Both the position numbers and the translations under genes were made by a program. A DNA stretch of 64,000 nt from Mesodorylaimus sp. YZB2_4 (taxonomy: Eukaryota > Nematoda > Enoplea > Dorylaimida > Dorylaimidae), in contig JASANH010000938.1 of NCBI GenBank assembly GCA_030248295.1, positions 868,001 to 932,000 on the forward strand, read 5' to 3'. Shown here piece by piece: positions 2,735-52,434 of this stretch. The notes beneath the pieces were generated by a model, which saw only the letters and a list, made by a program, of their open reading frames with translations, was not told where the DNA came from and ran no database searches. Within the stretch, counting starts at the first letter, position 1. Each line of letters opens with the position of its first letter.

Positions 2735-4422
2735 TCAAGCCAAATTGAAATAGGGATTATCGTCTTTCTTGCAAAACACGACGCACGAAGCGAGCATGCC
2801 GAAGAACTGAAACGCAGAGATATTTGGAAAGATGTACGTTGATATGTATATCCCCGGTGTAGGCAGCAACCACTGGCGCCGCGACCCAGACCAGCATATT
2901 TCTATTCCTCTTCTAACTTCACTTATCTCCATAATAGAAGCTAAGTGCCAAATAAAGAGGTGCCCAACCAATCAGCCTGCACGAGCAAGTACTGCGCTAC
3001 TGGACGCGGCCCCCGACTTACCAGGATGACCAAGAATCCGATTGTTCCTCCGGCCAGATATCTCATATTGGTTTGCAGGAATGACTCCACTTGTCGAACG
3101 CATCCCGTTGTGTAGATGTATCCATCCACGTTTTTCCCCATTCGTTCCACATTACCATTTAAGCATTCGGTCGAATTCTTGCAGCACGATAATGGAACCG
3201 AGTGAGTATGGTTCCGACCCCAAGCTGCATGTTCCCACGACGTGTAATTATCGGTGCCGCAGCAGCGCAACTAAACACAGACGTGGATTATTAAAAACAG
3301 AACTGCATCAAGCTTACGATTAGACTTACATGAATCTGAACAAAGTTGACTTGGTTGGTCAAAGTGTCATAGCCAGGTTGTCCATACTCATTGAACGTCG
3401 TATTCGCATCTTTATCGATCATAACATGAATTTGTCGCTTATAGACGAACACCAAAGTAATGGCCGTCACCAAGGCCACGAAAGTGAGGAAGACGAAAAC
3501 AAAGAACTGAAAAATTGCACTTATTCGCGTTGTTTCTTACGATCGAATCAATACACCTTTTTAGCGTCCGTCAAACACTTTGAATTCGAAACTCCCGCTT
3601 AGGCTGCCTATAGCTACATATGAAGGATCAGGCAGATCTGGTCATAAGCAGTCAGGCTACCGTAATCGAGGAAATTCACATTTTTGTTGACATCAAAAAG
3701 GTCTAATTAGCAATTACTTACCGTAAAAGAACACTTTCGACTTCCACCGCACGACGTAATGCAGCCACTCACTCCCGCCACCAAGAAGATGATACCGACG
3801 AAGATCATAACCACGGCCGGCACCCATGTCAAATAAGCCGTCGAGAACGAGCTAATTTGTTTGTAAGTCGCCAAAATATAACCGCCCAAACCCCACACCG
3901 CCACTGTGGCTGCCTAAAATTTAAGTAAAACGTCATTTTAAATCAGTTTATAATTTTATCTACACTTCGTTCACAGCTACAAGTACGAAGGCCACGACGA
4001 AACTCGAGGCTATTTTCAACTACCGAAACGAATGAAACATTCTAGAAAGATTTCGAAAGAATGAGCGCCCAGGCTAAAGAATCATGCCGAAAATAAAGTT
4101 TCACTGATCGTGAGTCAGGCCTACTTTCGTGCTGGTGGGCTAATTTATTCTATAAAGTTCTTCAGATAAACTATTAGGTAGAAAACTAAGAAAATGTTTG
4201 TTTCATTTGGTTTTTATAACTTCCAGGCTCCAGGCGGGAAAATGATTGTCAATTATGTGTTCCTTAGCCCTCGAGTGCGCCTTATGGTGCTTGGCTATGG
4301 ATAAAGTGTGAAATGATGAGGCAACAAATCGCGTCGATCTCACTCAAATATACCACACTTACCAAAAACAGGAAACCCAAAATGAACAATAAAGTCCTCG
4401 ACGAGCAAATAGCTAACTTCAT
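2735..4422 (-). CDS. Tetraspanin
   Basis: Five exons (4422-4363, 3913-3722, 3506-3330, 3270-3022, 2806-2735) join in frame to 249 residues, the normal tetraspanin size. The product shows TM1 at the very start (SRTLLFILGFLFL), a small loop, TM2 (AVVMIFVGIIFLVAGVSGC) with the family's short Cys-containing turn, TM3 (FFVFVFLTFVALVTAITLVF), a large extracellular loop, and TM4 (GGTIGFLVILFFGMLASCVVF). The large loop has the hallmark CCG motif (LRCCGTDNY), a second Cys pair (PLSCCKNS) and a further TGC, as expected for the disulphide-bonded EC2 domain, and several N-glycosylation sequons. Tetraspanins organise membrane protein partners into microdomains. The cytoplasmic tail is short (CKKDDNPYFNLA). 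The subfamily cannot be assigned by eye. Confidence 0.88.
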
Positions 4423-9135: not shown

Positions 9136-10447
9136 GTGTAGCTCTGTAGGTCGCAGCATGCGTAGCTTGAACTTAAAACATGTCACCTCTTTTCTGGCAC
9201 CCAAAACCGGCCTCCACAGTGCTTTTGCCTCTACTGTACGCATCTATGAGCTTTGTTTGTAGCTCGATTCGATTAGGTTGTTTGTTTTTGGACTGCAGTA
9301 TCTCACAAAATCCTAACATCGTACGCGATTGGCAAAAATGCTTTTGATCCTGCTAGGACTTTTTGAAGGATTGGCAGCTGATCACTGCCATCATTAGCAT
9401 TAACAACAGGCTTGAGCGAAAAACAAGCTAGTGATCAACCTCACCCCCAGAAATTAGACTCTCATGGTCACGTATTAAAGTACGATTCCCTCTGACGTGT
9501 GCATACCATATTCGATCAGGGAGCCAGGCCTAATCCACGGTTCTGGGGCCCAACTCAGAGAGCAAATAGGCATGTAAATGGGATGCGAGCCTAGAAGCTC
9601 TAGATTCACGGTCGGCCAGTTCGATTCAGACCACTGTCACAAACTAATTCAAAGAGAGGCCCGATAATTTGAATACGAGCCGTCAAAAAAGCGTGCACTA
9701 AAATGAACTCGGCGCGCAAGCTGGTTCGATGATGTTAGCTCGAAATTTTAATAGGCAGAATGTGCACTGATGCAAATTGTTGCTAGTACACAATAAAAGA
9801 AAAAATTTTTGCATTTGGCAACTTGCGTCATTCAAAAACGAACATATTTCAAAAACTTTGCACTTTATCGAGAAGAGATGGTGCAAGAAAGACCGAAATG
9901 GTGGGTACCTGGGGTCTCCTCGAACCATAGAAGGCTATGCATTGGTCCCCTTGACACCAACGAGCCCGGATTGAGTAAATCTTATTCCCTTTAAAATGGG
10001 CGAGCAGCATCACCAATCCGTCCCATGTAGTTTTCAAGAATTCCCTCACGCAGTTTTTGATAGACTCTGGAAAAAGAACCATGAACGTAGAAGGCAAATT
10101 GGACCTCGTCCGGTCGTTTTCCCTTTTCTCTTTTTCAATAAAGCAGTGCCGGTCGGCCAGCCTTACATGGCCTACTCATCAGCATTCACGACGCGGGCAG
10201 CCCACATTGACTTCCATAATGAATAGGGCAAATAGTTTTTTCCGCTTCTTACACAGATGAGCGCGGGTTTTAGGTTCTCGGCTTTCTTTCTTTACAAGCT
10301 TCGTTTTCAGGCCATCTTAGACGAACTGGGTTCTCATCCAGTCAATCTTTATTGAACGGCTCAACAAACTGGGCCATCTCCCTCGATGTGAGCTAATAAT
10401 CCGGCTCGTCCTTATCAGCCCCATTATCCGAGACAGAATCATTGGCC

Positions 10448-11665
10448 ATGTCTAACCTGTACCACACGGTCGTGGCGCCCCCACTCGAGGCTTGTGCCAG
10501 TCGCGAAGAAGCTGCTCTCGAGTCGATGTCGTTTTGGATAAACGGAATTTTGACCCTGGCCTTGGTCATGCTGGGCATCACTGGTAATTTAATTATGATC
10601 GCTTCTTTGCGATGCAACACGAAACGATGGCTGCCACTTTATTACTACTTTATGACATTCGCCATTTGGAACACGACCCTTTTACTGGCCACTGTGGTCT
10701 TCTATTGCTTATCGGCCTTGCACCTCAGCCAAGACAGATACTACGGAAGTCCCCTTCTGGCCCACCTGAACATCGTTGGATATCCGTTCGCCAACAGCGG
10801 CATGACAGCGTCCGTGTGGCTAGTGCTGTGCTTGACTTTGGAAAGGGCCTTGGTCGTATGCCGACCTTTGGAACGATTTGTGGCCGAGACCAAACGGAGA
10901 GCCAAATTGGTCACGTTGGCCATAAGTATTTTGGCTCCGCTTTACAGCCTACCACTTTTCTTCGAGCTCCGTGTGATAGAAGTAGACGAAAAGGAGAATC
11001 TCACCAATTCCAGTGTCGAGCATTTATACGATGTGGTCAAGACGGGTCTGCGCGATAACGCTACTTATAAAATCCTATATCGCATAGTGTGCAATCTCCT
11101 CTTTTTATCTTTGGTGCCTTTTGTCATCGTGATCGCACTCAGCGTTCGAATCGTGTGCGTGATTCGGAAACGTGCTGAGGGAGGCGATCGATGTCCGGCG
11201 CCTTGTCTTACCGGCTCGCCTCGTTTGAAATCGGAGGCGCTCTTGTCGAATTATAATTCCTGCGCACCACTGATCGTGAGACGTGATGCGAATGGGAATC
11301 GGCAAGGGGACTCGTCTCGAGGGCGGTGTCACATACGCTCCGCCTGCGAACATATCCATCGAACGCACGTGACACTGACCGTGCTGGCTGTCAAGTATGT
11401 CATCTGCTACACATTACCAACTTTACTGAACATTCTCGAATTGCTGGTAGAGCCCAAGTCCCTGCGCGAGATGGGCGTGGGAATACTCGTCGATCTGAGT
11501 GACCTTATGGTGGTGGCCGATGGCGCCTTAAACGCTTTCGTCTATTTTTCATGGCGACGGAAGATCCAGTTGCGCGGGTTGAGTTTTCGAAGTAAAAACA
11601 AAGCTGCTCAAAGGCAGAGAAATAAAAAGACAACATCTCTATGCGATGATGATAACAAAAAATAA
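10448..11665 (+). CDS. FMRFamide-receptor-like class A GPCR (intronless)
   Basis: One uninterrupted frame of 405 residues. Seven hydrophobic segments are visible: TM1 in FWINGILTLALVMLGITGN, TM2 in YYYFMTFAIWNTTLLLATV, TM3 ending LTLERALVVCRP, TM4 in LVTLAISILAPLYSLPLFF, TM5 in LLFLSLVPFVIVIALSVRIV, TM6 in VKYVICYTLPTLLNILELL and TM7 in LMVVADGALNAFVYFSWRRK. The layout and wording (ERxLVVCRPL, LPLFFELRVIEV) resemble FMRFamide and related invertebrate peptide receptors. The DRY motif is ERA and the TM7 NPxxY is NAFVY. I used the ATG at 10448. A basic loop of about 80 residues separates TM5 from TM6. An AATAAA overlaps the stop codon. It has a convergent paralogue at 13344-14630. The ligand is unknown. 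Confidence 0.85.
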   Translation: MSNLYHTVVAPPLEACASREEAALESMSFWINGILTLALVMLGITGNLIMIASLRCNTKRWLPLYYYFMTFAIWNTTLLLATVVFYCLSALHLSQDRYYGSPLLAHLNIVGYPFANSGMTASVWLVLCLTLERALVVCRPLERFVAETKRRAKLVTLAISILAPLYSLPLFFELRVIEVDEKENLTNSSVEHLYDVVKTGLRDNATYKILYRIVCNLLFLSLVPFVIVIALSVRIVCVIRKRAEGGDRCPAPCLTGSPRLKSEALLSNYNSCAPLIVRRDANGNRQGDSSRGRCHIRSACEHIHRTHVTLTVLAVKYVICYTLPTLLNILELLVEPKSLREMGVGILVDLSDLMVVADGALNAFVYFSWRRKIQLRGLSFRSKNKAAQRQRNKKTTSLCDDDNKK

Positions 11666-13343: not shown

Positions 13344-14630
13344 TCACAAAGTAGAGACCCTTTCTTGCCAGCTGCAGACGGAGCGAGCACTGTTTCTTCG
13401 ACTGTAATCCAATGTACTGAGCCTTCGTTCGCTCAGTGCACTCGGTGACAAGTGAGTTTGCATGCTCTTCCCTCCGCTGGCTGTACCAGGCGGGGGCAAC
13501 TTTGCGAACACGACTGGCGCTTGTTGTTTTCGATAATAATTGGCGATTTTTCGTCTCCAAGAAAAATAAATAAATCCGTTCATAGCACTGTCGACTACCA
13601 CCATGAAATTACTGACGTCGACCAAGAAGGCCATGCCGCACTGCGTCAACGTGTACGGCTCGACGGCTATTTCTAGTATGTTAAGCAAAGTGGGCAAAGT
13701 ATAGCAAAGGACGAACTTTGTGGCCAGCACAGCCAGAGTCAAATGCGTTCTGTGAGTGTTCTGCTTGACAGCTTTCGAATGGCATCGACTCAACGAGGAC
13801 CGTCGGCGATCGTAGTTATAAGTGGCTACGCTGGGGTCGATCAAGTTGTACTCTTGATCGTTTTCGCTAAAGTAGTTGTAGCGGTCTTCATTTGTCAATG
13901 TTCGAACCACGAACACGATACGCATGCTCATGACCACGATGCTCAACAGAGGAACGATGGACAGAAATGCGGCATTGCCAACTATGCGGTAGGCGATTTT
14001 GTAGAGCGGGTGATCACGTAAGCTGGTTTTAGCCACGTCCACTTCTCCCGTCGCCGTCCTGACAACTCGAAGTTCGAAGAATAATGGTATATTGTAGATG
14101 GGGGCCAAGAGACTGATGGCAGCCACGACGAAGCGAGCTCGTCGTTTCGGTGTCGAGGAGATCAGGTGAAGAGGCTTTATCACGGCCAGGTACCTCTCAA
14201 CTGTCAATGACAACACCAGCCAAATGGATGCACTCATTCCACAATTGGCCATGGCGTAACCGGCTAAACTGAGGTAAATGAAGTCGTCGTATCCGCTTAT
14301 GCTTACCTCGCTCTCGTCGGGTCTCAAGGCGGGCATCGAGTAGACGAACACTGTAGACACCAGCAGTGCCGTGTTCCAAATGGCGAATGTCATAAAGTAG
14401 TAGTAAAGAGCCAGCCATTTCTTAGTATTGCAGGCCAAGGAAATGACCATGGCCACATTTCCCACAACGCCGACCACGATCAGACACATAGTTAACACAC
14501 CGTTGATCCAAAATGAGAATGTACGGCCGAACGTGCGTCCATCACTGAGGTTGGCCGCAGACTCATTCGACGTGCTGACCAAGAATATATTGGCCGCAGT
14601 ACAGTTGATATTGAAATGTTTGTCGATCAT
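13344..14630 (-). CDS. FMRFamide-receptor-like class A GPCR (intronless paralogue)
   Basis: One uninterrupted frame of 428 residues starting at the ATG 14630-14628 (MIDKHFNINC). It is clearly related to the plus-strand receptor at 10448: both share FWINGxLT in TM1, YYYFMTFAIWNT in TM2, ER after TM3, HRTHxTL then LPTLLNILE in TM6, and YFSWRRKI after TM7. Here TM3 ends LTVERYLAVIKPL, closer to the usual DRY form, and TM7 reads DSAMNGFIYF in place of NPxxY. The N-terminus has NxS/T glycosylation sequons (NCT, NES, NLS). The tail is Ser/Arg rich. Both genes lack introns while nearly all neighbours have them, which suggests an intronless ancestor and local inverted duplication. The ligand is probably a neuropeptide, by family only. 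Confidence 0.87.
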   Translation of the reverse strand: MIDKHFNINCTAANIFLVSTSNESAANLSDGRTFGRTFSFWINGVLTMCLIVVGVVGNVAMVISLACNTKKWLALYYYFMTFAIWNTALLVSTVFVYSMPALRPDESEVSISGYDDFIYLSLAGYAMANCGMSASIWLVLSLTVERYLAVIKPLHLISSTPKRRARFVVAAISLLAPIYNIPLFFELRVVRTATGEVDVAKTSLRDHPLYKIAYRIVGNAAFLSIVPLLSIVVMSMRIVFVVRTLTNEDRYNYFSENDQEYNLIDPSVATYNYDRRRSSLSRCHSKAVKQNTHRTHLTLAVLATKFVLCYTLPTLLNILEIAVEPYTLTQCGMAFLVDVSNFMVVVDSAMNGFIYFSWRRKIANYYRKQQAPVVFAKLPPPGTASGGKSMQTHLSPSALSERRLSTLDYSRRNSARSVCSWQERVSTL

Positions 14631-17015
14631 GATTCGTGCGGTCGAGCTTGCACTCGAAATCACTGCTCGATATGGACAGTGTGAGCAAGGCAAGCAAGCT
14701 GCGGCGACAGCAAGATCAGATTCAAACCTGTCTACGAATATCTAATAATTAGAATGGCTTCTGTTTGAACCATTCGATGTTGACGAAGGAGGCGAGCAAA
14801 GAGAACTACAAGGTGGCTTGTTGGAAAGAAAGGAGGTGGATAACAGAGTCAGAGCCTTTCTCATATTCAGAGGCCCGCGATAATTGCAATCGGAGAAGGA
14901 AGCGTGAGAACTGTTTCCCCGGCTTTACGCCTGGACTGGCTTAGGCGTAAGACGAGGTTAGCGGAAACGCGTCACCAACGTATCCGATGAACTGAGCGTG
15001 GCCAGTACAGCTTGCCCTTCACTTGCAGGGAATTCAGGACGAAACGAGATCGTCTTCGCATGAAGACAAACAATTAGGAGTGAGCACTTATCCACTTTTT
15101 CTTTCTGGCCGGTGGTCCTGGCTTGTCACTCGATCATTTTATCAGCTTACTGCTGACCGTCCTTCCGACTACCATACACGGTAGCAGACTGGGCACAACT
15201 GGTACAAAAAAGGGGGCTTTTAGGAGGGCATCCATGTTGACGTATTTGACACACGAAGCCTTTTTATTTTAAATTAGAACCCCCGCACTCTCTCCTCCTA
15301 CGGGCGTTGCATAACCAGAGTTTGCGTGTCAGAACCACTCGCTCAGCTGCCCTCGGGCTCTTTCACGTTCGACTTCCGCAAATCGATTCCTCTCTAAAAA
15401 TGTCCACATATTTCAACGTGCACGCTCTCGGTTGGAAGCCACCGTCACCTCCTCAGAACAAACAGAAGGTCGCTTGAACAGTTTTTCAAACGCGTACATA
15501 ATCAGCTCCGCTTCGGCGTTTTCTTCAATGACCGGTTGGGCCCTCCGAGACCCATAAGACTCGTGAAGAACAAACATGGTTGGGGCTAATTATAGTCAAG
15601 CCCGCCCGAGCTCATCAGATTCGACCTGGCTGGCTGGCCGAGTGCAGTTGTCATCTTTCATAACGAATTGATAGATCGAACAATGACAGCATCTGCCCTC
15701 ACTCGCTTCCCGCATATGCCCTGTGCACGACTCTGGTTGTGAGATGAATAGTTTGATCGCACAACCACGAAGTCTCGTTGTCATTGACCAGTCGCATACA
15801 CACGCTATGCACTGATTCTGAAATAATTATTGGCCGCGGAACTTTCGGGTTTCAAACACAGCACCCTTGCTTTGACACCCTGCTTGGCCCTGACGGTTTT
15901 CCTGGCTAAAACCTTGATTTTGTTACCAGCGACCTCAGCGCACCTCGAAGGTTCCTTGTCAACACTGCGAACATGCCTTCACTAAAGGGGTCATGGTCAA
16001 GTAGCTGTGCTGAAATCAGAATGGTAGGCCTGATTAGCTCCCGTTTTAGATGAGTTCAGGCCCCTCTTTAGTTCTCGTTGGTTGCCCCATTCAAGCAGGT
16101 GCCGGGCCGTGCGTGCAAACAGTTTCAAAAAGGTGTTCAATAGTGCGCTAGGACTTCGACTGTGTCCGAATGTCCTTGTACCTCATAAACGAGTCTAATA
16201 TAGTTTTCAAACAAGGCATACGGACAACGCAGTTAGGGCCTTTCTGGCTTGTTAGCTAATTTGGATCTAGGCTTATTTTAGAAGTCGGATCGAAAATAGC
16301 GATATCAGCTGTTGACGCAAAAAACTCTTATGAAGGCTCGTGCGCAAAGGCGAATCAAAGTCTCAGAAACACATGCCTATACTTCAATGTATATCCCTCC
16401 TCACGTCTTCGAACGATAAGAGTTGCCAGAAACAAAGCTAAAAAAGTAAGACGCTTTGGCTCAAGTTTGATTTTTGTTGCGGAACAGAAATAGCTTTGCT
16501 CTTTTCACCCAGATGAGCAACACACTAAGTTGTTGTGGGCAAGAGGCCATGCGAGAGCATACACATAATCAATCTCACTTCGTTTGATGTAAATGAAATC
16601 GGAAATGACAGCGCATTTCGAGATGAGATTTCACCAAAATGCTAGTGAATGCGTGTAAGTGTACGACAAAACGTGAGGAAGTTTATCAAATTTTAGTACT
16701 CTTGTTTGGTCAAATTACTTCATTAGTTTATTGCTTGCTAATGTGTTCTCTGATCACCACAACAAACATGCCCTTTTCTAGAGCTGATTTTGTTACGTTT
16801 GCTGCCACTCATAGTCAGTCAAGCTTTTAAAAAATAATTAAGTCTTGCCTCGTTTTCTGCGACGGCAAGGAAAAATAAAACATTAAAGTTGTGTATTTAC
16901 ACCACATAGACTACTCCAAATAGCATTTCGCAAATCCGGAATGCAACGTCAAGACCATCCTGTCTGACATACGTAATGACACGATATGCATTAGCCAAAC
17001 ACTGATGGAGTGCGA
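14631..17015. other. Intergenic region, no gene recognised
   Basis: Contains the 5' flank of the minus-strand GPCR and the 3' flank of the minus-strand neuropeptide gene. Short open frames (for example 15596-15784 and 16639-16830) have no signal peptide, domain or splice context that supports them. Confidence 0.5.
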
Positions 17016-17434
17016 TTATGCCTCAACTCTGACATAGACACTGGTGGGTGACTTTGACTTGGACAAGTAGCATTGGATGGGGGTGAAATAGCAATTCCTA
17101 TATAACCGGTTCAGCTTCCAAAGCACAGCCTTCTCCGAAACGATGGCGTTTTTCTTGCCCAAATCGAGACTTTGATTCTTTTCCAAAGACGTAAGGGGGT
17201 CGCTGAGTGGCGTTTCTTGGCTGCTGTTTAGATACGTGTCCCTAAAAGAATAATCTGACGGGTCCTGAAAATCACCTGACACAAAACCTGGAATTACCTT
17301 TTCCCTTGAAAGCGAATAAAAGTTCCACTGGTTTTAACTTTATCATTTCGGCGAGGCGTAGTGACTTTTCTGACATGCCGGCAAGAAATGCATGCCAAAA
17401 AACACATCAAAATAACGAACTGTGGACACCGCAT
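17016..17434 (-). CDS. Allatostatin-C (PISCF)-like neuropeptide precursor, copy A
   Basis: Two exons (17434-17298 and 17241-17016), joined across a 56-base intron in matching phase, give a 120-residue precursor. It starts with a signal peptide (MRCPQFVILMCFLACISC) and ends with a single peptide-like segment, LYRNCYFTPIQCYLSKSK. The core CYFTPIQC has the two cysteines six residues apart and the YF-P-I pattern of allatostatin C (CYFNPISC in insects), whose peptides are cyclised by that disulphide and act through somatostatin/opioid-type receptors. The exact cleavage sites are unclear: there is no dibasic pair directly before the core (KLNR), and the precursor runs 17 residues past the second cysteine. 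The start was chosen for the signal peptide. It faces copy B head to head across about 0.9 kb. Confidence 0.8.
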
Positions 17435-18301
17435 CTTGGCTCGCACAATCTTGCGTACCAAGATGTTCACCCGGTAGGCAGGCACCAATTGCGATGGTTC
17501 CCAAACGCTGCAGCTTATAATGAGGCTTGACATTGTGTACAAATTGGGGTCTGCATTCTTCTCCTCAGTCTTATTATGTTAGCTTTCAGGTTCAAGAGCC
17601 AAGAGCCTGGCCTTTCTTGCTAGCGTACAGGAAAGGCGACCTGGAAACTCAGTTACGTCAGGCATTAAAGATCGCTTTCATATTCAGGATCAGAAGAAAA
17701 CAAGCGACGGCCTGACCACACGCTCGATTCTCCATCCACGTACGCAGTCTTGGTCACTGCCGTCACTCTTCCCCCGCCTTTTCGGTCGTGACATCAATAA
17801 AGATCACTTCCTGTTGTAGCCTTCGTTCCGTCGACGCAGCACGTAAAGAAGGGGCCCCCAAAACAATCAGTGCTCAATGATGTTCGAAATCAAGCCTATT
17901 CTTTCTTAGTCAATATGATATCATTCATGAGGTTATCCGCCTCCTCTTGCTGCCTGACACATGATAGGCCAGGCCTGGATTCTTGCGAGTTTCCCTCTGA
18001 TATCCGCTTCTTCTTCTTGTATTGACGCAAGAACCTGGAGATTTCGGTTCTTGAAATACTTGTTCTCGTCCAATCAATCTAATAGTCCTCGAAGGCGCTT
18101 GTGCCAGTACTGTGGAAGAAAGCGAGTCTCTTGCATCCAAGGTTTGTAATTAGGATTCAGTCGGGGTATCACTTTCTTTAAATTGGTCTGTGCACCGCAA
18201 CTATTCTTCTGCAAGGTCACGGAACGAACTGTTTTGATCTCGCCTACTCCTCAGCAAGATCGGTGTAGGATTTTTTACCTAGAGCAGAAGATCGTCTACT
18301 C
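17435..18301. promoter_or_regulatory. Shared upstream region of two divergent neuropeptide genes
   Basis: An 867-base interval separates the start codons of the two allatostatin-C-like genes, which point away from each other. It therefore should contain both promoters and possibly shared control elements. I could not pick out a specific site. Confidence 0.45.
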
Positions 18302-18661
18302 ATGCGACGAAACATATCCGGCATATTGCTTGTTGTTATTCTGTGTGCATGTGCTGCTGAGCATGTAAGCGGTAATGGAAGGAGAAACTTTGCTGCATCG
18401 TTTTGGTCAAGGTGAGTGTCAGGCTGGTTAATTTGGTTTGGAACTACTGTACACGACACTTTCAGATCGATCGCACCATCCAAGCACTTTTATCGAGGCG
18501 TTGCTGTCCAGCTAAAGTCGCACGACGTTTCGAAGAAGAGAACACGATACGGTGTGGTCGAATGGGACAAGCGACTGGCTGCGAAGTTGTCCGAGCGTGG
18601 GCTTTACCGAAATTGCTACTTCTCACCGATACAGTGCTGGCTTAGTGTGAGGGCGCATTGA
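18302..18661 (+). CDS. Allatostatin-C (PISCF)-like neuropeptide precursor, copy B
   Basis: Two exons (18302-18411 and 18466-18661), with a GTGAG donor, a TTTCAG acceptor and matching phase, give 101 residues. A signal peptide (MRRNISGILLVVILCACAA) is followed by a basic propeptide with KKR and DKR sites, then a C-terminal peptide GLYRNCYFSPIQCWL that ends SVRAH before the stop. CYFSPIQC matches the allatostatin-C pattern of two cysteines spaced by six residues. It shares LYRNCYF-PIQC with copy A, so the two are paralogues in inverted, divergent orientation. An AATAAA lies about 20 bases past the stop (near 18680). A C-terminal extension past the second cysteine is unusual compared with the insect peptides, which end one residue after it. 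Confidence 0.83.
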
Positions 18662-19241
18662 ATCGTCTTTGCTTTCATCAATAAAGATTTGCCGGAGCGA
18701 TGTAATGCAGACTGAAGAATCATGCTGGCATAATAAACAGGTTGGACCAGCTAAAGTCATGCTCGCCTTGTCAGGTGATTGCGAATCCAGTCTTTACTTG
18801 GAACATCCATGGTCTGTCCGTCATCGTGGGTGTGTCCTTTCAGGCCATACGTTCAAGTTCAAGGCAATTCAATTTCCTCTAGGTTCATATTGACAGGACT
18901 AATTACAGTACTTATAAATGGTGGGTTTTGTTCTTGGAGCTTTACTGAAGAATGTGCGCGACAGAAGGCACCTACTTGTCACACTTAACGCGCTTGGCAG
19001 CTAATGAAAACCGCTTTCTACTGGCCATTAGTAGCGCAGCAACATTACACCAACACCCACCAAAAATCAGAATAGAGTTAGGAGAGAATACAAAAGCAGG
19101 AACTGCCCGAATACGTTGGTCAGATAGTGTCGCGCAGTAGCTTCCGGACCACAGTATGCTCGGGCTTACTCCGCTTGGCATGGGTAAAATTATTTTTTCT
19201 AGCAATGGACAAATCATATTTTAAACCGACTCTGTTCTAGG
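18662..19241. other. Upstream region of the lectin-mucin receptor
   Basis: Carries the poly(A) signal of the neuropeptide gene near 18680. The signal-peptide exon of the following receptor should lie here or further left; I could not identify it with confidence. Confidence 0.4.
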
Positions 19242-19242
19242 T

Positions 19243-22200
19243 GTGATCCTTAGGTTTCAATTAGCTGTATCAATCTGCCGCGATGCCCAATGGAACAATG
19301 GGCGCTACTGCTCGTTCATCAAACCCGTGACTACGACCAGTTGGCACCAGGCACGCAGCCTGTGCGCGGAAATGGACGCTCGTCTACCCGAGTTTGACAC
19401 CAGCAGTGCTCCAGGGCCTCTGTCAGACTTCCTGTAAGCACTTATTAGGGCGTCGGAAGCAGTTTATAAATGGTGGTTTTCTTTAAGGCCATTCCCATCT
19501 GTTACAGCAGTAGGTTACGTATCAACAAATGCGTCGAAGAATACGTATTACAGCGTGGCCACTGGGCAAGTCATGTCGACCACGTACTGGATGGATCAAT
19601 CGCTTTCAGTACAATCCATCGGAGCAGCTTATTTGGAATCGCAGACCACGGGAGTAAAATCGCAATCCATAAAGCATAGTTGCCCGCTGGTTATGTGCGA
19701 AGAGGAACACAGTGAGTAAAGCATTCGCTCGCTCGCCCAAGTTCAGACGTTCAATAATATTTTAGCGAATGCGACGAAGCTAGCATGCAGCCAAATGAAA
19801 TCATATTTCAAGCCTCTTTTCGGTGGGGCTCTCAAAGCCAATCATTTCGCCACCCCGAACGAGTTCGAAGCCCTGAACATCAGTGCAAGCAGCTCTATTA
19901 GCAGTCTTGGTTATGTATACACAATTGGTGTGCATAATGTCACCGTGCCTATTTACCACTTTCAAGTAGCTCTTAATGGAACTGTCTACGATCTTATCGC
20001 AGTTGGGCAAAAGCAGAAAACTTATTTGCAGCAATCACCGAACGGCGTTGCCTACAGTTTGGTTGGTATCATAGGGTACGCCTTACCTGCTCCGACCAGT
20101 TTCAGCCTGCCTGTTAAATTATACTGGGGCAAAATAAACTCAGCTTTGATCACGACATCCGCAAGTCTGACGATGAGTCCCTCTTTCCACACTACCGTCA
20201 GCTCAAGTCCTAGCACTGCGCCAAGTACAAGCTCGACAAGCCATTTAACGAGTGGATTGTCCTTTACTAGCTCTACCACTTCCAACTTGAGCTCCATTTC
20301 TTCAGTTCCGATTTGGATCACTTCATCAATGCTTTCTACCACCACTCGAATTAGCCCAACCTCTATTATTGCTAAATCTGCTTCAATGCTAAGTTCGACC
20401 AAAGTCACTGAAAGCCTGACTTCGATAGCCTTGACAACCACTAGCATCATCCCAGCGCCTATTGAATCTGCTCCAGCTCCAGCCCCAACGAGCCCGGGTC
20501 AACCACCAGCTCAAGCTCCACCGAACCTGGGTCCACCTCCAGCTCAAGCTCCACCGAATCTGGGTCCACCACCAGCTCAAGCTCCACCGAATCCGGGTCC
20601 ACCTCCAGCTCAAGCTCCACCGAATCTGGGTCCACCACCAGCTCAAGCTCCACCGAATCCGGGTCCACCACCAGCTCAAGCTCCTCCGAATCCGGGTCCA
20701 CCACCAGCTCAAGCTCCACCGAACGGGGGTTCTAACAGGGGGAAGAGGCAAGCAAAGGATGCGTCGACAGATACGCCTTACGACGCCCTCCTGACATTGG
20801 GTCCCAGTTGCGATCATTTGTGCGATCAGGCAGCTTACACTTTGGAGACGACAATTTACTTGCCTCGTGCAACGGATGGAAATGGATATTGCTTGCTGTA
20901 TGACGGTATCTTTCCCCTATATTTCCTTCAGTCCGAAGAGTACCATATACATTGTTTCGGTGTGTATTTAGAAACGACAACATCAACAACAAGTGGCACG
21001 AGCGGATCGGAGACGACTACCTCTAAAATCATTATCACAGCGACAACCATTACCACTAGCACCTCATCAGGTAGCACATCTACGCAGAGCAGTACAGTCA
21101 CCTCCATAAGATCTGATTTACTGTCGATGAGCAGTTCCGCGACTAATGTGAAAGCGAGTACCGCATCGACTAGGCAATCACTGTTCTCAAGCTCATCACT
21201 TGTTGTAGCACCTTTGACCTCCTCGCGTGTTGTCTCATCAAGCTCCTCATCAACTCTTATTGTGTTGCCCGCCTTTTCATCGGCGAAAACACTAACATCA
21301 TCGATCACTCCACCGTCAACATCTGTGGGTCGATCGTCAAGTTCCACGTTCGGAATAGCACCGACTTCTTTCCACACACCTCTGTCGCCAGCGACAACCA
21401 ACCAGTCAGCATCCTACACTTCTGAAGTAGCACCGACTGTGTCCCTCAGTCCGTCCGAAAAGACTACAATCACTGCAAGGATCTCGATGCCGGCTTCTTC
21501 AACCCGCGATACCATAACTTCCGCCACCATCAAAATTAGTCCCATTGGTTCCATGTTCTCTACGCTCTCAGGCATTGCACCTAACCCAGCTAACCTTACG
21601 GTGCCAAACGCAGCAAGTATCCCGTTATCATCTCGAGGCCTTGGTGACCTGGGTTCGGTCGCCTCAGCCTCAACCTCGACCGCTGAAGTCCTACAGGCCA
21701 TGACCGCCTCCACGGCCCCCGAGACGCTCACAAATGAAGCTAGAGCAGACGCAACAGAGCCTGATGTCGAAACGAGCATAGGTACTGCTGATTATTCCTC
21801 AGCTTCTGTGGTTTTCTTTCCACAACCCACTCTTGATTCTGAAACGCAATCCTTGCCAATACCAGCGCCGTCAAGCACAGTAGTTGTCATGGCCCCAGGT
21901 AAGGAGGAATGCGGCAATTTTAGCAGGCATGATATCATATTTGTCGTGCATACACGGGAAATCTGCTGACCTGACGAAGTGATGGCAGGAGCCGTAATAG
22001 GTGGTAACGTACCGACGTGTAATTGCACGATCCTACAAGTAATTGTTGGTATTTTAAAATAGTTGCCTGAACCTTTGTGTCACAAACTCAAACATTTGAG
22101 CATAACAGCATCGAAAAATTTACCTACAGTAGATGTTAACATACGGTACTCTCATGCTTAAAATACAGTGAGTTCATGCTTATCCTGGTTAGCACCAGCC

Positions 22201-37701: not shown

Positions 37702-39198
37702 GTTGCCTCACGACAGGCAATATAGAGCAGAGTAGTACAATCGGTCGAGAGGAATGGGGTACAGCTCTCCAAAATAGTTCTTGTCTTCGTCTTTACGATT
37801 TCGATCAAGAGCACCTGGCCTCCCATTGGGCTAGCAATGATTTATGACAATCTTCATAAAATCCTGTTTTTAGAACAGGTTTCTCATATACCTTTAAACA
37901 CGATGAATTTAACTGCAAACAGTCTCTTCATTCAGTGTACGACAAAAAAAGCGTTACTTTCTCCAATTCACCCAAATATGGCCATCAGACGCCAATGCTC
38001 TTGCAAAGGGGTAGGTACCTACGACGATAATTGATGCGATCTGCGCAAGGTCCCACGCCAAGCGAGAATGTACTGGCGTTACAACCTGAAAACTTCTGTT
38101 CACCACGCGATTTTTTAACTCTCCTTAAACGGTGTTTCTTTTTCGTTTGCGACCGATTATATATAAACATCAGAGGGCGTGTGAGTTCTTGGTTCTAATA
38201 AGGCTCCAAAATGTAGTCGCGGATGATTATTTATTTAGAACACGGCTGTTTTGGCAGCCACTGGCGATTAGAGTGTTCGTCTTCTGTGAAGTAGGTTGCG
38301 ACGAAAGTGCATTTATGAAAGACGTCAGAACTGTGCGATTAGGCCGACTAAAGAGGGACTGTGTGATGACTCTTTGCTCTTCGTAACTCGAGCTAATGCA
38401 TGAAGGCAAGGTCAACATTTCAGAGCTATATATTAGACGAAGCACTCTGTGCAGGAGATCCAGGATGGCTAGCCCAATCTAGGCGTGCAAGGCCCCAGGT
38501 TTAACACTGGGTGTGTGAATAATAATAGTCGGGAGCCTGTAAAATTACAGGAGACACCAGAGATGAAATCGAATTGAGTTGAGCCCAAATTGAATTGAAA
38601 GTCAAAGTGTTTTGCAAGGCAGAGAGGCAAATGGTAAAAACAGATCTAACTACTATATTCTTCTAATTGGTGACCTGAATTCCTCAAACAATGTGTACAC
38701 GCTTTGATTGATTCGAGAATGCGGTACTGAGCTGATCGCGACATGCCTCGCCCGCAATATCACGTCAATAAGTGCAATGAGACCACGCAAAGTTGAAACT
38801 GGAAGCAACAATGTTAAAAGAACACGGATACGAGGCGTGGGTCAAACAAATATGCTGAGAATAAGAGTAATGACTTTATTCAAGGCTACACATTCGTACC
38901 CTAAACATGGCCAGGATGAACTGCGCCTTGGAATTTTAATCTTTTCGGTCTCATGCACGCAACACAGCCGGGAGAAGGAGGTGTGGTTTGTCACTTTACG
39001 ACTCGAAAATTCTTTGCCAACCCCAAAATGGGTATGGCCATTGTTTGAAACTAGTCAAATGATATGAGCGCTGGTCGCCCTCGTCACACAGTACAGGCCT
39101 TCAGTGACCTCGCAGAGTATTGTATAAAAGGGAAGACAGAACAGAGAAGAGTCATTCGATTCGATCACAGTCCCTCCCGTCAACGAGTCCCATTCACC
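37702..39198. other. Divergent intergenic region between two related secreted-protein genes
   Basis: Separates the minus-strand giant gene from the plus-strand duplicated gene. It includes a tRNA-like fragment around 38463-38520 (T-arm-like CCCAG, loop, CTGGG) and the TATA box at 39121-39130. Confidence 0.5.
39121..39130 (+). promoter_or_regulatory. TATA box of the secreted duplicated-module gene
   Basis: TGTATAAAAG lies about 75 bases before the start codon at 39199, a suitable distance for a TATA element with a short 5' leader. It is the clearest core promoter element I saw in the window. Confidence 0.65.
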
Positions 39199-40446
39199 AT
39201 GCTTCGCCTGCTCTCTCTGATCTTGTGCATTCTCGCCTGCAATGCCGCTTCGTTGCAAAATGGCCAACAAGCGGCCGACACTAAGAGCAATGGTCAAACT
39301 TTGGACTGGGCAGTCTGCAATGTCAACGGACAACAGTTGAAGCCTGGTCAACGCGCCACGTCGGGCAACTTTGTCTTCGAGTGCCAGCTGAGTGAGAACA
39401 TTGTCAGGACAACCATCGTCGCTTGCCTGGACGACGAAGAACCAAAGCGCGAACACCCCATAGGCGGTCAGTGGGTGGTCGGCGCTCGTCCATTTCGCTT
39501 CGTCTTCGAGTGCGCCAAGAGTGGTACAAGCACAGTAAGAAAAGTGGCTCAGTGCTTCTACGACTCTGACGAGGGCCAGGCCAAGTTGAATCCGGGCTCC
39601 GAACAAAAAGTAGGCAATAATGTGGTTCGATGCTTGCCACGTGGTGACAACGGTGTCCAATTCGATATCACATATGGAAAAGAAACCTCTGTCAACACTG
39701 GAACCAACGCAAACACGAATACGAACGTTGATGCCAACAAGAACGCCAACAGGAACACTAATACCAACGCCAATGCCAACAGCAACACCAGTACCGATAC
39801 GTTTTCTGACACCGCCAACACCACCACCAACTCTGAGGCTTCTTCCAATGCCAGTGCCAACGCTGGCACGTCCACGAACACAAACTCCGACACTGGTTCA
39901 TCCAGCCAAACCAGGGACAACAGCTGGGCTGTGTGCTACGTCGACGGACAGAAACTGACCCCAGGTCAACGCGCTCGGTCCTCCTTTTTCGTCCACGAAT
40001 GTCAACTGGATGGTAGAATTGTGAGGACGCAGATCGTGGGCTGCTTGGACGACAATACCCCCAAGGGCGAACATGCTCACGGAGAGCGTTGGGTGGAAGG
40101 AGAGCGACCATATCGTTACGTGTTTGAGTGCACCAAGACTGGAGAAGTCACCCAAAAGAAAGCCGTCCAATGCTTCTACGACTCCGACGAAGGTCAGGCC
40201 AAGCTGGACGTGGGCACGGAACAACGCGTGGGCAAGTTCCTAGTGAAGTGCAGTCGATTGGGCGCGGGCGGTGTGCAATATTTTGTCAACTATATTCAAA
40301 CCCAAGGCGATGCCAACTCGTCAGCTTCGGCCCCGGGCACCAGTGGTAGTGCTCCCAGCGTTGTTACGGCCAATGCAGGTGCAAGCAGTACCAGCAAGAA
40401 TGAAACCGAGACCTCTCACTCGTCGAATGGTCATATGCGCAAGTAG
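39199..40446 (+). CDS. Intronless secreted protein with a duplicated MIG-18/Fn1-like region
   Basis: One frame; I start at ATG 39199 because it opens a clean signal peptide (MLRLLSLILCILACNAA), giving 415 residues. Two near-identical blocks of about 115 residues follow. Each reads WAVC-x-V-[ND]GQ-x-L-x-PGQRA, then F-x-x-ECQL, IVRT, CLDD, EH, G-x-x-WV-x-G-x-RP, FEC, QCFYDSDEGQAKL, and VG with a closing Cys. They are separated by about 75 residues almost entirely of Asn, Thr, Ser and Ala. The layout is very close to nematode MIG-18-type proteins (three short cysteine sub-modules per block). The gene has a TATA box and no introns, unlike the related minus-strand genes nearby, which fits a strongly expressed secreted or glandular product. 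That role is inference. The C-terminal tail is Ser/Gly/Thr rich. Confidence 0.85.
   Translation: MLRLLSLILCILACNAASLQNGQQAADTKSNGQTLDWAVCNVNGQQLKPGQRATSGNFVFECQLSENIVRTTIVACLDDEEPKREHPIGGQWVVGARPFRFVFECAKSGTSTVRKVAQCFYDSDEGQAKLNPGSEQKVGNNVVRCLPRGDNGVQFDITYGKETSVNTGTNANTNTNVDANKNANRNTNTNANANSNTSTDTFSDTANTTTNSEASSNASANAGTSTNTNSDTGSSSQTRDNSWAVCYVDGQKLTPGQRARSSFFVHECQLDGRIVRTQIVGCLDDNTPKGEHAHGERWVEGERPYRYVFECTKTGEVTQKKAVQCFYDSDEGQAKLDVGTEQRVGKFLVKCSRLGAGGVQYFVNYIQTQGDANSSASAPGTSGSAPSVVTANAGASSTSKNETETSHSSNGHMRK

Positions 40447-45970: not shown

Positions 45971-52434
<6,464 letters not shown>

Follow-up and report, generated by a model that had tools for sequence, protein, structure and literature searches.

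Two short genes stand head to head in a 64,000-nucleotide stretch of DNA of the nematode Mesodorylaimus sp. YZB2_4 (the window, in what follows), and each would end in a two-cysteine peptide that recalls the arthropod neuropeptide allatostatin C (AstC). The locus raises the question whether this is a local pair of paralogues or a sample of something larger, and what such peptides may be for. Probably, both genes belong, as divergent members, to a family of secreted peptides that is found at no fewer than 103 places of the genome and is homologous to C. elegans NLP-99 and to arthropod AstC.

Structure of the gene pair

Gene A lies on the minus strand. Its first exon (17298..17434), read directly and also modelled, opens with a signal-peptide-like sequence (MRCPQFVILMCFLACISC...) and is followed by a modelled phase 2 intron of 56 bases (17242..17297, GTAATT...TTTTAG); the second exon (17016..17241, TAA stop included) contains the propeptide and the C-terminal peptide, in which a codon-pattern match places the core CYFTPIQC at 17070..17093. 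Gene B, on the plus strand, has the same plan, with a signal-peptide-like exon 1 (18302..18411, MRRNISGILLVVILCACAAEHVSG..., likewise read directly and modelled), a modelled phase 2 intron of 54 bases (18412..18465, GTGAGT...TTTCAG), an exon 2 with propeptide, C-terminal peptide and TGA stop (18466..18661), a codon-pattern match to the core CYFSPIQC (18614..18637) and a hexamer AATAAA, similar to a poly(A) signal, at 18680..18685. The two start codons are separated by 867 bases (17435..18301), a stretch assigned to neither strand.

The two-exon models give precursors of 120 amino acids for gene A and 101 for gene B, both of which have a hydrophobic stretch at the start and LYRNCYF(T/S)PIQC(Y/W) near the end, with 17 residues after the second cysteine (Cys2) in gene A and 7 in gene B. 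In all this the preliminary description of the locus was accurate: it had claimed the divergent arrangement with its distance of 867 bases from start codon to start codon, introns of 56 and 54 bases, a common LYRNCYF(T/S)PIQC(Y/W) ending, and a signal peptide in both genes, to which a hydrophobic, signal-like exon 1 corresponds by a hydrophobicity score rather than by SignalP.

The core codon pattern matches twice in the window and not at all in 100 dinucleotide shuffles. Gene A has its weak points, namely a poor donor (GTAATT), and a sole AATAAA or ATTAAA within 400 bases that lies about 280 bases past the stop. The Pfam scan of the gene B precursor and of the gene A frames gave no match, and neither did Rfam, at gathering scores, or ARAGORN across the window. 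Judged by these features, the two look like real genes, predicted to encode secreted-type precursors in two exons each.

A large family in the genome

The genome assembly that was searched comprises 145 Mb in 1067 contigs. A codon pattern that stands for C[YF]FxPIxC matches it 87 times, against 4 matches for the reversed pattern. The form C[YF]F[ST]PI[QE]C accounts for 80 of these matches, which are spread over 49 contigs and comprise 69 distinct 24-mers. The relaxed pattern CxFxP[ILVFM]QC gives 118 matches, against none when reversed, 38 of them beyond those of the first pattern; among the 32 added matches that were listed, 23 read C[YF]F[ST]P[VL]QC, one reads CRFSPLQC, and 8 are unlike members of the family. 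At least 103 family-like places on 59 contigs thus encode C[YF]F[ST]P[IVL][QE]C, a count that includes some haplotig copies or remnants, and with such a number the simple pair of paralogues that had been proposed for the window does not hold. Members that lie within 5 kb of each other (12 pairs) are arranged in tandem in 7 cases, divergently in 3 and convergently in 2, and the fetched family loci have a GC content of 45%. As for cores of the PISC or PITC type, the C[YF]FxPIxC search gave just CYFRPISC and CFFEPITC, neither with a family-like frame. A viral origin was considered and dropped: in viral contigs, one stretch fits the peptide pattern and none was confirmed as a relative.

Could the true AstC genes be few, and most of these copies be non-functional duplicates or haplotigs of them, whose number the assembly has inflated? 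Signs of haplotigs are present, as equal-scoring matches on contigs C700 and C752 and near-equal ones on C156 and C748 and on C209 and C929. There is also one inverted partial copy on contig C89 (locus L022), where two members lie within an inverted duplication (L022:1872-2018 and 3904-4055) with arms of 77 and 73 bases, 96-97% identical; it extends over the final part of one family gene and over the gene's neighbour, and the plus-strand copy at this locus belongs to it. Against such an explanation stand the 69 different 24-mers among the 80 cores, and the finding that near-identical exon-2 DNA, compared for tails of equal length, occurs in only 2 pairs among 67 members; further evidence on both sides comes from the gene models.

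Gene models and selective constraint

Two-exon models were sought for 67 of the 80 PI-type members by a mechanical search that rewards hydrophobic starts and ignores intron phase. The threshold score of 7 or more was reached by 54 of the 67 and, among 1217 decoy frames drawn from the loci of the members, by 141; the intron is in phase 2 in 50 of the 54 passing members, compared with 53 of the 141 passing decoys. Among the 13 members left without a good exon-1 model there are probably both remnants and genes whose first exon was missed. Four of the 23 P[VL]-type members lie in the fetched stretches, and none of these reaches 7 (the scores are 5.2, 5.7 and 6.7, and one member is cut by the edge), so that, with the 13, some of the 103 places may hold only remnants. 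Most modelled members share one anatomy, which consists of a signal-peptide-like exon, a phase 2 intron, and a second exon that encodes a rapidly evolving propeptide and a conserved CX6C peptide.

Across 14 independent pairs of paralogues, the propeptide (34 codons) has a pN/pS of 0.57, the stretch of six residues ahead of the first cysteine (Cys1) one of 0.14, and the core one of 0.02; the last value is biased because the members were selected by their core, a bias of which the flank value is free. Asn directly precedes Cys1 in 60 of 67 members, and an aromatic residue is found three positions before Cys1 in 66. The tail after Cys2 has 1 to 27 residues in all 67, which leaves a single peptide near the C terminus. 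With regard to the possible co-regulation that had been suggested for the window pair, no clear shared promoter element appears upstream of the genes, the most widespread 8-mer being common to at most 8 of the 46 modelled genes. The members without a good model and the P-V-type loci below threshold would suit an origin of most copies as duplicates or haplotigs, but the flank pN/pS of 0.14 and the 54 members with a model oppose it, and we regard that explanation as improbable.

Relationships inside the family

A tree was built from the 67 exon-2 sequences and includes no arthropod precursors; it has few columns and long branches and is poorly resolved. A single split (96/91) sets 50 rows, most of them of the [FY]INC type, apart from 17 others, among which are both window genes. 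The path to a gene on contig C21 (locus L009) measures 3.93 from gene A and 4.44 from gene B, while the path from A to B measures 5.59. On this rough tree both genes are therefore nearer to L009 than to each other, and neither a simple pair of paralogues nor a recent local duplication finds support. Genes A and B belong to a divergent minority of the [YF]RNC type, and such members, L009, L010 and L020 among them ([YF]RNC[YF]F[ST]PIQC[WY]), look most like arthropod AstC.

Homology to allatostatin C and NLP-99

Insect AstC ends in PISCF, with a single Phe after Cys2. This C terminus of AstC sensu stricto is absent from the family, all 67 members reading PI[QE]C plus a tail in a set that was chosen by that pattern. 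One CX6C loop with x-F-x-P-aliphatic-x is present, as in the broader range of AstC/somatostatin-type precursors. A profile of 22 members, compared by hhalign, matches an AstC peptide of the Manduca type with 96.9% probability and C. elegans NLP-99 with 93%; the controls, somatostatin-14 and a loop-shuffled AstC, gave 1.1% and 0.6%. When flank and loop were shuffled 20000 times with the cysteines kept, the observed score was reached by 4 shuffles for AstC and by 7 for NLP-99. The AstC-like CX6C peptide of the preliminary description is upheld by these matches, and the gene anatomy, constraint and homology of the family were established by computation.

An origin by convergence, in which unrelated secreted CX6C peptides have come to resemble AstC, would agree with the alignment of only about 13 residues, with the replacement of Ser by Gln before Cys2, and with the lack of a Pfam match; the tail, longer than in insect AstC, likewise speaks against homology. 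The profile and shuffle tests oppose convergence, and C. elegans nlp-99 shows the same exon layout, with the signal sequence encoded in exon 1 and the peptide in exon 2 (PMC13082328), so that we consider convergence very improbable, and homology the better reading. The peptide of NLP-99 (T05A8.3) is bridged from C9 to C16, and its receptor NPR-16 is Gi/o-coupled, according to the same paper. An NLP-99 homologue has been reported in Steinernema carpocapsae (PMC9881375), and crustaceans commonly express three AstC forms (PMC11959706).

Candidate receptors

A human SSTR2 query has 117 GPCR-like matches in the genome, the best at 126.7 bits, which are candidate receptors; the top frames are C168:37101, C57:114105, C145:64705, C147:70868, C17:825690 and C474:2530. 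Three somatostatin-receptor-like GPCR frames among these matches lie in a row on contig C18 (77516-88430). The window itself contains two similar, convergent, single-frame genes of rhodopsin-type GPCRs (10400-11665, plus strand; 13344-14741, minus strand), 5.4 and 2.3 kb from gene A, which we take to resemble relatives of FMRFamide receptors. A PDB search with the first of them (10445-11662) gave receptors for vasopressin, oxytocin, neurotensin and cholecystokinin as well as adrenergic ones; it was rejected as a linked receptor of the peptides, as no somatostatin receptor is found among its best 30 PDB matches.

Genomic surroundings and phylum

The cuticle-collagen N-terminal domain (PF01484) and the TTR-52 family (PF01060) are specific to nematodes. 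Above curated cut-offs, they have 133 and 27 matches in the genome, respectively, and none in 14 control genomes, of which the two named ones are prokaryotes. The SL1 leader gave no genome match with up to 2 mismatches allowed; FAR (PF05823) gave none either, nor any in the controls, which leaves that search without a positive control. Both results speak against a member of Chromadorea, such as Steinernema or another rhabditid, and suggest, short of proof, a nematode from outside Rhabditida, perhaps one of Dorylaimia or Enoplia. GH12 (PF01670), a weak test for a plant-parasitic dorylaimid, had no genome match, and neither had a CAHS query, a result that is uninformative alone; a tardigrade origin was rejected in view of the collagen and TTR-52 matches. 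Romanomermis culicivorax differs, with 36% GC and a genome of 323-359 Mb (PMC3890508, PMC10879605). The preliminary description had suggested a duplication in a phylum other than that of the insects and left the phylum open; duplication outside insects is supported, and the phylum is Nematoda. In tardigrades, too, AstC is reportedly duplicated, as Koziol's neuropeptide survey of 2018 is said to describe.

Some other features of the window may be mentioned. Downstream of gene B, at about 19225-21969 on the plus strand, there are Ser/Thr-rich frames that by eye resemble a secreted protein of lectin or mucin type; this region contains a 33-base tandem repeat of 7.6 copies (20473-20723), and its long frame has no Pfam match. 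A frame at 39055-40443 (plus strand) has four stretches that match Fn1_2 (PF23003), and a frame of 273 amino acids at 51613-52434 has a transmembrane-like stretch at its end. GC skew is 0.20 to 0.27 in four successive 2-kb windows between 46001 and 54000, unlike the rest of the window.

Proposed mechanism and possible functions

A basic residue is found at positions -5 to -7 relative to Cys1 in 62 of 67 members, compared with 26 to 51 members for frames of three residues elsewhere, and 26 of 67 lack a dibasic site in the interval that lies 4 to 29 residues ahead of Cys1. We propose that the precursor would be secreted, that a convertase would cut it at a basic residue in the -5 to -7 interval, and that the two cysteines would close a disulphide ring; some tails may be amidated, 23 of the 67 members ending in Gly, and the peptide would bind a Gi/o-coupled receptor of AstC/somatostatin type, similar to NPR-16. 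In the [YF]RNC-type minority, the window pair included, endogenous neuroendocrine signalling is the most likely role, and the mostly [FY]INC radiation (50 of 67 tree rows) is likely to depend on the same receptor chemistry.

Much of the family might, on the other hand, be exported from the worm to act as AstC mimics at host or prey receptors, as doppelganger peptides derived from a recruited and multiplied neurohormone. The high copy number and the clusters, the fast propeptide beside a constrained peptide, and the closeness of the core to that of arthropod AstC are all consistent with export, for which cone-snail venom somatostatin mimics and nematode mimics of plant peptides provide precedents (PMC12962067). 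The same anatomy also fits endogenous peptides, however, and the core is as an inherited ecdysozoan AstC would predict, so mimicry is not needed; we think export rather unlikely. Equally doubtful is its fuller version, an arsenal of about a hundred variants made from an AstC/NLP-99 neurohormone, most of them aimed at AstC receptors of host or prey (arthropod or other animal), with the window pair among the older endogenous signals.

The preferred reading, a multiplied family of AstC/NLP-99 homologues, describes a known peptide type in a copy number for which no precedent was found in the literature searched. Genes for AstC and somatostatin have been described as single or present in a few paralogues. 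A family of about a hundred copies, in which the ring is frozen, the propeptide free to vary and the exon layout common to all, would be the largest of this hormone type, and we know of none that is larger. In the literature searched, with most subscription papers outside it, no listed title or opening of an abstract deals with such an expansion of AstC or NLP-99; nlp-99 itself is named in two papers, and of six core strings only FTPIQC occurs, by chance, in a paper on TRPM. It becomes testable whether the receptors have multiplied as well, whether the copies are expressed in separate neurons or in glands, and whether their targets are the worm's own or those of another animal.

Comparison with known systems

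Arthropod AstC of the PISCF type shares with the family the core R-[NQ]-CYF-x-PI-x-C, and differs from it in having Ser, not Gln, before Cys2, and a single Phe where the family has its tail of 1 to 27 residues. Cone-snail consomatins, secreted mimics of somatostatin type that derive from an endogenous signal (PMC12962067), are comparable, but they are components of a mollusc venom. NLP-99 differs in its loop, which has E in place of Y/F, L in place of I and S in place of Q, as well as in its tail, and a single gene is described in the available part of PMC13082328, compared with the 103 or more places found here. In other respects it is similar, being a nematode peptide with a signal in exon 1 and one bridged peptide in exon 2, closed in a CX6C loop of the form F-S-P-[IL]-x-C (PMC13082328).
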